Shown: positions 7,353-58,492 of the stretch, piece after piece
How positions within the stretch are numbered: the first letter of the stretch is position 1
Layout: every line of letters begins with the position of its first letter
Assembly: GCA_003168335.1 (NCBI GenBank)
Contig: PMSM01000006.1
Coordinates: 572,320 to 636,319 of the forward strand
Length of the DNA: 64,000 nt
Direction: 5' to 3'
Source of the DNA: Blastocatellia bacterium
GTDB taxonomy: Bacteria > Acidobacteriota > Blastocatellia > Pyrinomonadales > Pyrinomonadaceae
Notes under the pieces: model-generated
The model's input: only the letters and a program-made list of their open reading frames with translations
Databases searched by the model: none
What the model was told of the DNA's origin: nothing
Made by a program: the position numbers and the translations under genes

Positions 7353-7420
7353 GAGTGGCACAGACTTTAGTCTGTGATTTCTGGCGACGGTAAGAACACA
7401 GACTGAAGTCTGTGCCACTC
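7353..7420. repeat. Inverted repeat, GTGGCACAGACT family, copy 2
   Basis: Arms 7353-7376 and 7397-7420 are near-perfect complements and match copy 1 at 2247-2309. It sits between two convergent thioesterase genes, 5 bp after one stop, and overlaps the first two bases of the other stop (7419-7421 on the minus strand). Confidence 0.9.
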
Positions 7421-13722: not shown

Positions 13723-13731
13723 GCTTGGAGT

Positions 13732-13826
13732 GCGCTGACCTGTTTTGGAGTGCGCTGACTTGTCAGCGCTTTGGTAAGCGGCGACCTGCGGGGTCCCCGC
13801 GCGGGGTGCTCTTGTCGCCGCTCTCC
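13732..13826. repeat. TTGGAGTGCGCTGAC repeat, copy 1 (partly duplicated)
   Basis: TTGGAGTGCGCTGAC occurs twice in a row here, followed by TTGTCAGCGCTTTGGTAAGC and a GCGGCGAC...GTCGCCGC hairpin whose loop contains an extra GGGGTCCCCGCGCGGGG insertion. A simpler copy is at 16500-16558, next to the RAYT transposase remnant. It lies between convergent genes. Confidence 0.85.
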
Positions 13827-16265: not shown

Positions 16266-16609
16266 TAGGAGTCTCCGATCAATGAAGAGGAAGCTTTGCC
16301 GACAGGCAAACCCTAATTCGGTCCGCAGATTCTGTCAATCACGGGTAATGGGTCAGGTCGTATGATAGCCCACTTCATTACCAGGAGCGCTAACATGCAG
16401 TTGGACAGGATTGACAGGATGAGACCGCCCAGGATCACGTCGACTTTCTGCACGCCATGCCCGCATGGTTTGGGTTGGTGCTGGGAACACGCAAATAAAT
16501 TTGGAGTGCGCTGACTTGTCAGCGCTTTGTTAAGCGGCGACTTGTCGCCGCTCTCTAACCAGGTAGCAATTATTCTTACTTGCCCTCCCGAGTATACTCG
16601 CTGGCAATA
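16266..16609. other. Intergenic region carrying a REP-like repeat
   Basis: This 344-bp region between the M1 peptidase and the transposase remnant contains no gene. At 16500-16558 it holds copy 2 of the TTGGAGTGCGCTGAC repeat. Around 16395-16425 is GTTGGACAGGATTGACAGGA, a short direct duplication (GACAGGAT...GACAGGAT). Confidence 0.6.
16500..16558. repeat. TTGGAGTGCGCTGAC repeat, copy 2, beside RAYT remnant
   Basis: The unit reads TTGGAGTGCGCTGACTTGTC, AGCGCTTTGTTAAGC, then GCGGCGACTTGTCGCCGC. It contains two dyads (GCGCTGACTTGTCAGCGC and GCGGCGACTTGTCGCCGC), the two-hairpin form of REP/BIME elements. It lies about 50 bp upstream of a REP-associated tyrosine transposase start. Confidence 0.85.
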
Positions 16610-17095
16610 ATGTCCATAGATTGGCCCCACGCGCCTGTCCACCGGCTGGATTCGGCCGGCATATTCATGGTCACGGCCGCGACGCTCCATAAGAACCATC
16701 TGTTCGCAGATGCGGGCAAGTTAACCTTGCTCGAACACGGCTTACTCTCGCTGGCGAAACAGTATCAATGGCAGCTCGAGGCCTGGGCGGTCTTTACGAA
16801 TCACTATCACTTTGTCGCGCGACGCAAACGTGAATCAGCGAGTTTGAAAAAATTGCTAACCCATCTTCACGCCGATTCGGCGAGGGACCTTAATCGCATG
16901 GACGAGGAGATCGGTAGAGAGGTGTGGTTCAACTTCTGGGACACCAAACTTACTTACGAACGCTCCTACCTGGCCCGACTCAACTATGTTCACCCTTGCT
17001 CAAGCGACCTGAATGGGTACGTATTGACCGCAATAGCGTGCGTTATTCGCTTCACTCGTCGATTCCTTCTTAGCCATATCCTTGTAAGAATGTGA
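16610..17095 (+). pseudogene. REP-associated tyrosine transposase (RAYT, Y1_Tnp), C-terminally degraded
   Basis: From the Met at 16610 the frame reads WPHAPVHRLDSAGIFMVTAA, then the HUH-like segment LEAWAVFTNHYHFVAR with the metal-binding HxH, and later VWFNFWDTKLTYERSYLARL and NYVH. In intact RAYTs this last block continues as NPVxHGLV and carries the catalytic tyrosine region plus about 30 more residues. Here the sequence becomes unrelated (PCSSDLNGYVLT) and stops at 17095, so the protein is truncated or rearranged after NYVH. RAYTs are single-copy transposases that mobilise REP repeats, and a two-hairpin repeat lies just upstream. I treat it as a decayed gene. Confidence 0.75.
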
Positions 17096-22232: not shown

Positions 22233-22357
22233 TTTGGAGTGCGGTGGCAAGCGCAGCGCGACACCGCTTTGTCCGACAAACTTCAGTTTGTCGCTTGTGT
22301 GCTTTTCACTCGAGTTGAGCACAAACAGCGTTAACGACAAACTGAGGTTTATCGGAC
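22233..22357. repeat. CGACAAACTT...GTTTGTCG inverted repeat, copy 1
   Basis: Arms 22271-22293 (GTCCGACAAACTTCAGTTTG start) and 22335-22357 are imperfect complements, and the first arm is itself a dyad. A TTGGAGTGCGGTGGCAAGCG block (22233 on) resembling the RAYT-linked repeat precedes it. The second copy is at 49670-49740. The element lies between convergent genes, 1 bp from the aldo/keto reductase stop. Confidence 0.85.
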
Positions 22358-22358
22358 A

Positions 22359-23390
22359 TCACCTGCGTCCCTGATTCTGTAACTCGATCATCCATTGCGG
22401 ATACATGGAAGGCGGCGCGGTGGTGCTCGAAAGTTGCGCGACTTCTTCTTCGCTTAACTCCAGCTCCGCAGCTTTCAAATTGTCTTCCAACTGCGACATC
22501 CTGTTCGCGCCGATGATGATCGAAGTGACGCCCGGCTGAGCTAATAACCAGGCCAACGCCACCTGAGCCACCGTCGCGCCTTTCTTCTCGGCAATCTTTG
22601 CGAGCGCGTCGATCGCGTCAAACTTCCGTGCTTCGTCAATCGCCGGAAACTGAAAGTTAGTGCGCCGCGCGCCTTCCGGATTGGGATTGTCGCGGCGGTA
22701 CTTGCCCGAAAGAAATCCGCCGGACAGAGGTGACCAGGGCATCACACCGACGCCTTCTTCACGACACAACGGCAGTAGCTCGTGTTCGAGATCGCGCCCA
22801 ACCAAAGAGTAATAAGCTTGCAGCGAGACGAACCCGGCCCAACCTTTCTGTGCTGAGAGAACCAGCGCCTTCATCAAATGCCGGGCCGGCCAGTTGGAGC
22901 AGCCGATATAACGCACCTTCCCTTGCCGCACCAGATCGTCGAGCGCGCGCAAAGTTTCTTCGACCGGCGTGAGGGTGTCCCAGCCGTGGACTTGATAGAG
23001 ATCAATGTAGTCGGTGTTGAGTCGACGCAAACTATTTTCTATTGAAGCGAAGATGTGCTGGCGCGAGAGGCCGACGTTGTTCACGTCACCAGAGCCCGCG
23101 ATGGCTGCTTCACTCATCGCGCCGCGCACCTTCGTAGCGACAATCACCTGGTCGCGGGCGACGCCGGCATCCTTCAAAGCCTGACCCAGAATCGTTTCCG
23201 ACTGGCCGTAAGAATAAACGTCGGCCGTGTCGAAAAAATTAATGCCCGCTTCCAAACAGCGCGCCACCATCTGGCTTGCGCCCGCCTGATCGACGGCAGC
23301 GATGTTCAGGAAATTGTCGCCGAAGGTCATCGTGCCGAGGCAGAGTTCGGAAACTTTCAAACCGGTGCGTCCTAATGATCTGTATTTCAT
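22359..23390 (-). CDS. Aldo/keto reductase
   Basis: The Met at 23388-23390 (MKYRSLGRTGLKVSELCLGT) gives 343 residues and begins exactly at the family's first strand. The catalytic tetrad is visible: D and Y in FFDTADVYSYGQSE, K in QVIVATKVRG, and H in LYQVHGWDTLTPVEE. GCSNWPARHL, YYSLVGRDLEHELL, MPWSPLSGGFLSGKY and IIIGANRMSQLEDNLKAAEL are further family motifs; the last segment binds NADPH. Enzymes of this subgroup reduce aldehydes with NADPH. It is probably monocistronic. Confidence 0.93.
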   Translation of the reverse strand: MKYRSLGRTGLKVSELCLGTMTFGDNFLNIAAVDQAGASQMVARCLEAGINFFDTADVYSYGQSETILGQALKDAGVARDQVIVATKVRGAMSEAAIAGSGDVNNVGLSRQHIFASIENSLRRLNTDYIDLYQVHGWDTLTPVEETLRALDDLVRQGKVRYIGCSNWPARHLMKALVLSAQKGWAGFVSLQAYYSLVGRDLEHELLPLCREEGVGVMPWSPLSGGFLSGKYRRDNPNPEGARRTNFQFPAIDEARKFDAIDALAKIAEKKGATVAQVALAWLLAQPGVTSIIIGANRMSQLEDNLKAAELELSEEEVAQLSSTTAPPSMYPQWMIELQNQGRR

Positions 23391-32272: not shown

Positions 32273-33142
32273 CTATGGCATTGAGCAGAGCTCAAGCACT
32301 GAAACTTCCGGTGGGCAGCCGTAGCGAATCGGCAGCACGACCGTGCCGAGTCCACGGGTCACGTATATCTGCGTATTTCCTCGCCGCCCCAGGCCGCGCA
32401 GTAATCGCCGCCGCGGCCGGCCGGAGCGGTTCTTCTCTGGCCGCAGGGTTACCTGGCCGCCATGCGTGTGGCCGCTCAGCACGAGGTCGACCCCGGCGCG
32501 GGCTGCGCGCCGCAGGATGATTGGATTGTGCGCCAGCAACAACTTCATTTCGTCATCGGTGGCACCGGCCAGGGCCAGCGGCAGATCTTCCAGACCAACC
32601 ATCGTATCGTTGACGCCGGCCAGCCAGAATGATTCTCCATTCACATCGACCCGCATGCCTTCGTTCAGCAGGATCCTGATGCCCTCGGCGCGAAACAGGT
32701 CGGCGATCAGTTCCGCATCAGTCCAGTGATCATGGTTTCCGAGGACGGCGAAGACACCGTAGCGAGCGCGTAGGCGGCCCACCAACTCAGCGCAGGGCGC
32801 GGCGTAGCCGCGATCGTGCGAGATGTAGTCGCCAGTCAGCGCAATTAAATCGGGGCGCAGATCGTTTGCAGCTTCAATAGCGCGCTCAAGATGCCCCGGG
32901 TTAACTAGCGGGCCGTAATGGAAGTCTGAAAGATGGACAATGCGGAGACCGCTGAGGGCCTTTGGCAAGCGGCGCAGATAAATCTGTTGCCGTTCGATGG
33001 CCAGCATGAAAGGCTCAGCCAGGGCCACCCGCGCCATTTCACCCAGCGCGGACCTGATTACAGATAGCGGTCGCGGCTCTGGTCGGGGCCGCCGGCGCAC
33101 CGGCCGATCATGTCTCCAGCGAATTGGAGTCGACATATTCAT
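32273..33142 (-). CDS. Calcineurin-type metallophosphoesterase
   Basis: The 289-residue protein has the five metal-binding blocks of the YkuE/calcineurin group: RIVHLSDFHYGPLV, DLIALTGDYISHDR, GVFAVLGNHDHWTDA, LLLAHNPIILRR and LVLSGHTHGGQVTL. The N-terminal 50 residues are Arg-rich (RWRHDRPVRRRPRPEPRPLS) and may reflect a late start or a basic tail. Members hydrolyse phosphomonoesters or diesters such as UDP-2,3-diacylglucosamine-like lipids; the substrate here is unknown. It is 100 bp from pgsA. Confidence 0.88.
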   Translation of the reverse strand: MNMSTPIRWRHDRPVRRRPRPEPRPLSVIRSALGEMARVALAEPFMLAIERQQIYLRRLPKALSGLRIVHLSDFHYGPLVNPGHLERAIEAANDLRPDLIALTGDYISHDRGYAAPCAELVGRLRARYGVFAVLGNHDHWTDAELIADLFRAEGIRILLNEGMRVDVNGESFWLAGVNDTMVGLEDLPLALAGATDDEMKLLLAHNPIILRRAARAGVDLVLSGHTHGGQVTLRPEKNRSGRPRRRLLRGLGRRGNTQIYVTRGLGTVVLPIRYGCPPEVSVLELCSMP

Positions 33143-56958: not shown

Positions 56959-57082
56959 TCGAATTTCCACCATTAGCTTTTGCTGTTCGTTTCAGTAATA
57001 ATCTCGCCTTAACTCAAAGGGATCGCGAGCGTTCGCGAACGGTTGGTGCCCGAAAAGCGGTGACAGGTCGCCGCACTCCAAA

Positions 57083-58492
<1,410 letters not shown>

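Follow-up and report, generated by a model that had tools for sequence, protein, structure and literature searches.

A truncated RAYT gene behind an inverted REP doublet

The window, as we call the whole 64,000-nucleotide stretch of DNA analysed here, is part of a 5.16 Mb draft genome in 14 contigs (the window genome, G000). It contains a REPIN, that is, an inverted REP doublet, located 51 bp before the start of an open reading frame (ORF) whose first 128 codons belong to a RAYT gene and whose remainder is unrelated to it (Table 1). The earlier note had described a two-hairpin unit just upstream of a Y1_Tnp-type gene that loses similarity after NYVH, and both observations hold: the doublet is predicted to fold at -18.5 kcal/mol (z -5.9), with a CTGAC arm joined to a GGCGAC arm as judged by eye, and the DNA match to the closest intact relative ends at NYVH. 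The tail of the ORF past this break resembles neither the intact gene nor any other locus compared, and about 300 bp past the break match nothing among the compared loci except the window itself.

Table 1. RAYT remnant and repeat copies annotated in the window
Feature	Position	Strand	Basis
Cut-off REP head, directly before the second REPIN	13725-13743	+	Pattern search
Second type-A REPIN, with a hairpin cassette (13788-13811) in the loop of the right arm	13744-13826	+	Pattern search, sequence inspection
Type-A REPIN: left REP 16500-16528; inverted, partly worn right arm 16529-16558	16500-16558	+	Upstream of the RAYT remnant; fold; same doublet at the G001 gene
RAYT codons 1-128 kept (HUH motif NHYH; NYVH tyrosine motif at the extreme end)	16610-16993	+	Sequence comparison, NCBIfam profile
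33 unrelated codons and stop past the break	16994-17095	+	Comparison with the intact gene
GGTGGC-form REP, like the one upstream of intact RAYT G000:C9:518327	22233-22270	+	1 base different over its length
Single type-A REP arm ending at ATG 57083	57054-57082	-	Sequence inspection

The ORF starting at 16610 scored 21.9 bits with the Y1_Tnp profile, under the 23-bit cut-off, and 55.7 bits with the NCBIfam model REP_Tyr_transpos (NF047646; cut-off 80), falling short of the latter because its match stops at position 128 of the 146 in the profile. Three intact relatives passed the same model with 88.0, 93.0 and 83.9 bits, and the window gene is therefore a remnant whose family is RAYT. NHYH and NYVH are present in the window copy and in nine aligned relatives; G006 reads SYVH instead of NYVH. 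We take the tyrosine of NYVH to be the catalytic one, in agreement with the alignment to TnpA-REP (PDB 4er8). A PDB search with a ten-sequence profile (A1) retrieved 4er8 with E 2.3e-7, the sole other match listed up to E 1 being an unrelated kinase (E 0.076). The AlphaFold model of the intact protein from the congener G001 had a mean pLDDT of 63.6, being good in the core only and below 50 over most of the C-terminal part; Foldseek with this model ranked 4er8 first (E 5.8e-7), with IS200-type transposases close behind. The window genome as a whole has 14 Y1_Tnp matches, most of them scoring above the window RAYT.

The closest intact gene is the one in G001 (contig C189), which is 83% identical to the window copy over 128 residues; in the protein tree the window copy pairs with L146, a 100% match to this gene, with support 97. 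The same two-armed type-A REPIN stands directly upstream of the G001 gene and again downstream, after which the contig runs into N. At the DNA level the two loci match at 78% over 515 columns, from 18 nt before the REP to NYVH, and the genes adjoining the RAYT differ between them. Across the 128 kept codons dN is 0.10-0.11 and dS 0.9-1.2, giving a dN/dS of about 0.08-0.12; strong purifying selection therefore acted for most of their separate history, and the break is comparatively recent. Judging from the sequence, the type-A gene of the window genome was cut at NYVH recently and is probably dead, with the HUH motif and the NYVH tyrosine still encoded.

No syntenic counterpart of the window site was found in the genus. 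Two candidate empty sites were tried and rejected: the locus of an 80% ortholog of the FecR-like neighbour in G001, which has no GGAGTGCG heads, and that of a 62% ortholog of the aminopeptidase in G005, which has no REP heads. Because the gene neighbours differ at both, neither locus is a true empty site.

Repeat copies in the window and across the genome

Within the window, TTGGAGTGCGCTGAC occurs exactly at 13725, 13745 and 16501 (+), with two mismatches at 22234 (+) and 57067-57081 (-), and with three mismatches at 32835. The total of six matches at up to three mismatches compares with a shuffle mean of 2.1 and is reached by 2 of 100 shuffles, so that the exact copies carry the weight within the window. 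The earlier note had placed another copy at 13732-13826; the doublet there is genuine, with a later start than was given, and the bases before it proved to be a separate, cut-off REP head (Table 1). It had also listed degenerate relatives at 22233 and 57057. Repeats are indeed present at both places; the one at 22233 belongs to another subtype rather than being a decayed copy, and the other is one type-A arm. Within the window, these four REP sites fall outside likely genes.

The REP arm at 57054-57083 ends exactly at a start codon and could influence translation; the gene starting at ATG 57083 resembles a response regulator (by eye from the sequence). The 24-base hairpin cassette at 13788-13811, GCGGGGTCCCC-N-GGGGTGCTC, is found inside the loops of other palindromes: at 8 of the 10 cassette loci L250-L259, and in the window copy, it lies in the loop of a clear outer hairpin (by eye), and five of the outer hairpins are GGAG REPs (four of L250-L259, one degenerate, plus the window copy). 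There are 12 cassette copies in the window genome, three in G005, two in G014 and none in the other 57 of 60 genomes. A further palindrome family with CACAGACT-TCAGTCTGTG cores occurs in pairs at 2247-2278, 2287-2310, 7354-7385 and 7397-7420, and an inverted pair of GACAAACTTCAGTTTGTC-like palindromes (22273-22359) stands right after the REP at 22233.

The earlier note had proposed this RAYT family as a source of part of the local repeat load; the word "local" did not hold, since the load is genome-wide. Allowing one mismatch, type A (GGAGTGCGSYGACNNGTCRSCGC) has 153 copies in the window genome and its reversed control none, and allowing three mismatches the counts are 236 and 6, respectively; TTGGAGTGCGSYGRC occurs 172 times genome-wide, against once for the reversed pattern. 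The 100 exact copies listed include 34 pairs of neighbours no more than 300 bp apart, every one of them oriented heads-out; the spacing is 30-32 bp in 11 of the 34, and one pair forms a single overlapping palindrome. The inverted REP doublet is the repeated unit, as befits a REPIN, and many of the compact ones pair a CTGAC arm with a GGCGAC arm (by eye). Compensatory hairpin changes are present in the type-A copies: both variable stem pairs are Watson-Crick in 28 of 30 distinct copies, compared with a shuffled mean of 11.9 and a maximum of 19. REPs of the kind found at the gene's flanks recur throughout the genome, as befits a RAYT.

Heads and feet beside the relatives of the gene

A scan of one genome per species yielded 199 confirmed relatives, the best 80 of which were used. 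Their records are labelled Acidobacteria, Verrucomicrobia, Planctomycetes, Hydrogenedentes, Lentisphaerae, Kiritimatiellae, candidate division BRC1, PVC group and Proteobacteria (two), and single taxon labels may be wrong because most of the 80 records are MAGs. In an open 8-mer count GGAGTGCG ranked first, being present within 250 bp at 69 of 80 loci and in 3 of 80 distant windows, the latter shorter or missing for some loci. A GGA[GC]TGC[GT] head lies within 300 bp in all 80 relatives, compared with 6 of 58 distant control windows; the controls for heads and feet comprise these 58 loci, the 22 of 80 without full far windows having been left out. The earlier note had identified a RAYT beside its likely cognate REP and had proposed checking whether intact relatives bear the same repeat, or unrelated ones, on their flanks. 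The repeat is shared: in addition to the REPINs on both sides of the G001 gene, every one of the 80 relatives has the head, the case of unrelated repeats was not encountered, and the REP_Tyr_transpos profile agrees with the identification.

Hairpin feet within 300 bp of the 80 genes, again counted openly, were GGAG at 65 of 80 loci (4 of 58 far windows) and GGAC at 20 of 80 (6 of 58), and the same count found no enrichment of the GTAG superfamily foot (GTAG 3/80 against 3/58 far; GTGG 5 against 4). Heads occur on both sides within 400-bp flanks at 74 of 80 loci, and 62 of 80 combine an upstream plus-strand head with a downstream minus-strand head. A perfect 6-bp stem follows 190 of the 234 GGA[GC]TGC[GT] heads (shuffled control rate 4%), and of these stemmed heads the loop is 6 bases long in 133 and a TTT tail is present in 159.

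The commonest head is GGAGTGCG at 64 loci, GGACTGCG at 12 and GGAGTGCT at 4, with GGAGTGCG and GGACTGCG together at 12 loci. A protein tree was built from 76 relatives and two rows of the window genome, 4 of the 80 proteins having been dropped for stops. The GGACTGCG label calls for seven changes on this tree, two of them forced by well-supported branches, compared with a shuffled mean of 10.5. As a candidate for a residue that tracks the foot, position 28 has K in all but one of 63 GGAGTGCG rows (62 of 63) and R in 6 of 11 GGACTGCG rows, yet 12 of 80 loci bear both heads. A guide-to-cleavage-site rule was considered and dropped, the TTT tail being identical with both feet (by eye).

At 14 distant RAYT loci of the same class (about 25-35% identity), the foot is GTAGT in three cases and GGAGT in five, with neither turning up in the search at the other six; GGAG may accordingly be a variant of the canonical foot. 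The RAYTs at this level of identity form a second group in the relatives, many of its members having MYDYRK-type N termini, and GTAGT- or GGAGT-headed repeats stand at 8 of the 14 loci.

Other RAYTs of the genome and decaying loci

There are three matches to the window gene in the window genome, that gene included. The second, at C9:518327-518713 (-), is an intact RAYT, 52% identical to the window gene, with a GGTGGC-form REP upstream and a type-B REP downstream. Its clade-B relatives in G001, G003, G004 and G005 share 51-52% identity with the window gene; each is placed between type-B REPs and precedes the same downstream gene, acyl-CoA dehydrogenase-like by eye; the G005 copy has a frameshift just after NYVHQNP.

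The third match, at C7:19544-19330 (-), is a 215-bp unit consisting of a REP, an in-frame 48-codon ORF and an inverted REP. The ORF joins about 42 N-terminal codons to the last six codons of the RAYT, and the REPs at this type of locus are of a third subtype (GGCGGCTTGACGCC). Beside the same peptidase gene, G006 has a whole RAYT (623 bp with its REPs), and at the equivalent site G001 (C19) has both REPs and only about 12 last codons, with the upstream and downstream genes as in the window genome. The simplest reading of these sequences would be internal deletion in place, by which a RAYT locus decays into a bare REP doublet. Since the remnants in the window genome and in G001 differ, the lineages would have decayed at least partly independently, and since the upstream neighbour in G006 differs, a rearrangement or move would also belong to the history of the locus. 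When 34 loci of the window genome were searched by tblastn for RAYT coding inside other REP doublets, only the window copy, the clade-B gene and the C7 remnant were found.

Co-occurrence of RAYT clades and REP subtypes

We surveyed 60 genomes, the window genome included, taking as clade A those RAYTs with at least 60% identity to the window copy. Type-A REPs are present in all six clade-A genomes (G000, G001, G006, G041, G042 and G049) and in 14 of the 54 others (p 0.0008), and type-B REPs in all five clade-B genomes and in 6 of the 55 others (p 0.00008); both p-values overstate independence because the genomes are related. Restricted to the seven genomes of the genus, the type-A association does not reach significance (p 0.29). 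Because the type-B pattern omits the GGTGGC form, the numbers given for type B are minimum counts.

The pairing of subtype and RAYT clade is not strict. Other subtypes stand at the gene itself in G006 and G049; in G006 the clade gene is flanked by the third subtype, yet the genome has 13 type-A copies. In 8 of 60 genomes (G002, G005, G034, G037, G038, G039, G045 and G056) type A reaches 11 or more copies, 46 at most, without a detected clade-A RAYT. No RAYT of these clades was detected in G038, with 36 type-A copies, or in G039, with 46 type-A and at least 56 type-B copies; they hold either orphan populations or missed genes. The largest type-A population belongs to the genome with the broken type-A RAYT, 153 copies against 41 in G001, where the gene is intact and the assembly is in 230 contigs; fragmented assemblies, G001 among them, may undercount repeats.

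Interpretation and alternative explanations

The window locus is very probably the remains of a REPtron, in which a single-copy RAYT (TnpA-REP, an HUH/Y1 single-strand nuclease) is flanked by REPs that it recognises. According to the available parts of two studies of other RAYTs (PMC8266576, PMC6006769), the enzyme binds single-stranded REP hairpins together with their foot and cuts beside them; by homology, the same binding and cutting would take place here with GGAG as the foot. Acting on single-stranded DNA, the intact protein would bind the hairpin together with its 5′ foot (GGAGT), use its tyrosine to cut next to the hairpin, and assist in copying inverted REP doublets into new intergenic sites. 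The type-A copies of the window genome would descend from such RAYT activity.

Of the other explanations, the one that survives best, though we consider it unlikely, is that type-A REPs are mobilised in trans by the intact clade-B RAYT, the broken gene being irrelevant to them. The clade-B gene is intact in the window genome, the subtypes share the GGAGTGCG head and mostly the TTT tail, and type A persists in genomes where no clade-A RAYT was detected. However, G003 and G004 have full-length clade-B RAYTs with at least 20 and 91 type-B copies, yet type A is absent from both when one mismatch is allowed (5 and 12 copies with three allowed), and the clade-A gene of G001 and five clade-B genes are each flanked by their own subtype.

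It is very unlikely that the break after NYVH is an assembly error hiding a gene that is whole in the living cell. The genome is a draft and the sequence past the break matches no compared locus, as an error would allow, but the contig is 774 kb long and an unbroken 669-codon gene starts about 300 bp further on. There is an even slimmer chance that the hairpins are host regulatory elements, such as terminators or RNA stabilisers, merely accumulating near this gene family: their position outside likely genes at the four window sites would fit such a role, whereas the head stands beside the gene in all 80 relatives across several phyla and a single genus spans copy numbers of 0 to 153. A remnant of an ordinary IS200/IS605 insertion sequence with terminal hairpins would share the fold and the Y1_Tnp domain, but it is scarcely credible given that the IS200 transposase model was not passed (14.1 bits for the window copy and at most 18.7 for intact relatives; cut-off 55) while the RAYT model scored far higher on the same copy, that three diverged gene matches in the window genome stand against more than 100 dispersed hairpins, and that a plasmid collection gave no match.

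Relation to known systems

The locus read as REPtron remains resembles the E. coli TnpA-REP REPtron (4er8; subclass 2.2 of Quentin 2018, PMC6006769) in its HUH/Y1 core, in the position of the gene between hairpin REPs and in the genome-wide inverted doublets. It differs from subclass 2.2, as described in the available text, in the foot (GGAG or GGAC here, GTAG there) and in the HUH motif (NHYH here, DHLH there), and Q95, reported there as conserved, is F, H or Y here. Subclass 2.8, represented by Cyanobacteria in the sample of the same paper, shares NHYH, and its W[YH] motif resembles the W[FHY] found here; it has GT[AG]G REPs and YIHYNP, in contrast to GGA[GC]T, YVHQNP and an occurrence in Acidobacteriota and PVC-type phyla. 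According to the available text of PMC6006769, five subclasses have GT[AG]G feet, and those of subclass 2.6 (Bacteroidetes) and class 3 are atypical; the main text of that paper, as distinct from the supplements with REP tables, mentions neither "Verrucomicrobia" nor "GGAG".

The REPINs of Pseudomonas fluorescens (Bertels and Rainey 2011, PMC3116915) are likewise inverted doublets, RAYT-linked and dispersed; compared with the description in the accessible part of that paper, many doublets here join CTGAC and GGCGAC arms (by eye), and a series of decay from RAYT to doublet is visible. The TIRtrons of Acidobacteria (Di Nocera 2013, PMC3733652) also have RAYT-like genes between inverted repeats. 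Their available description covers GTAG and CGTC repeats and TIRs, part of the TIRs with GGGGWSAS, as well as GTAG repeats in Verrucomicrobia; we set them apart from the present repeats, with GGAGTGCG, by this text description and not by protein alignment.

On a wider and more doubtful reading, which we offer tentatively, a RAYT clade of Acidobacteriota, Verrucomicrobiota, Planctomycetota and their neighbours may have switched its foot from GTAG to GGAG, or in some lines GGAC, and internal deletions may reduce its genes, where they stand, to REP doublets retaining just the coding ends. Bertels and Rainey, in the part of PMC3116915 available, had already put forward REPs at the flanks of an IS200-like ancestor as a possible origin of REPINs. 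If the wider reading is true, REP doublets can arise like MITEs, from internally deleted RAYT elements, and the origin of REPINs becomes directly testable. The decay series would illustrate concretely how a RAYT locus becomes a doublet, a claim that extends to this step and not to the subsequent spread of such a doublet.

In a literature search covering text outside supplements, no paper contained both GGAG and RAYT as whole words, and among the matches listed for TTGGAGTGCG none was about these repeats by title. The kind of system, REPtron and REPIN, is already known; what seems to be new is the GGAG/GGAC foot without GTAG enrichment in a clade across Acidobacteriota and PVC-type phyla. Most of what is known about REPIN/RAYT biology comes from Proteobacteria; the present finding adds a large clade of Acidobacteriota and PVC-type bacteria whose foot differs, and the GGAG/GGAC split supplies sequence pairs with which to test what residues of the protein read it. 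Within one genus, the RAYT can be followed from intact (G001) through truncated (window genome), frameshifted (clade B of G005) and reduced to coding ends between REPs (C7 of the window genome, C19 of G001) to not found. Because this series comes with REP counts, it lets one ask what becomes of a REP population after the death of its enzyme, and whether dead RAYT loci feed new doublets.
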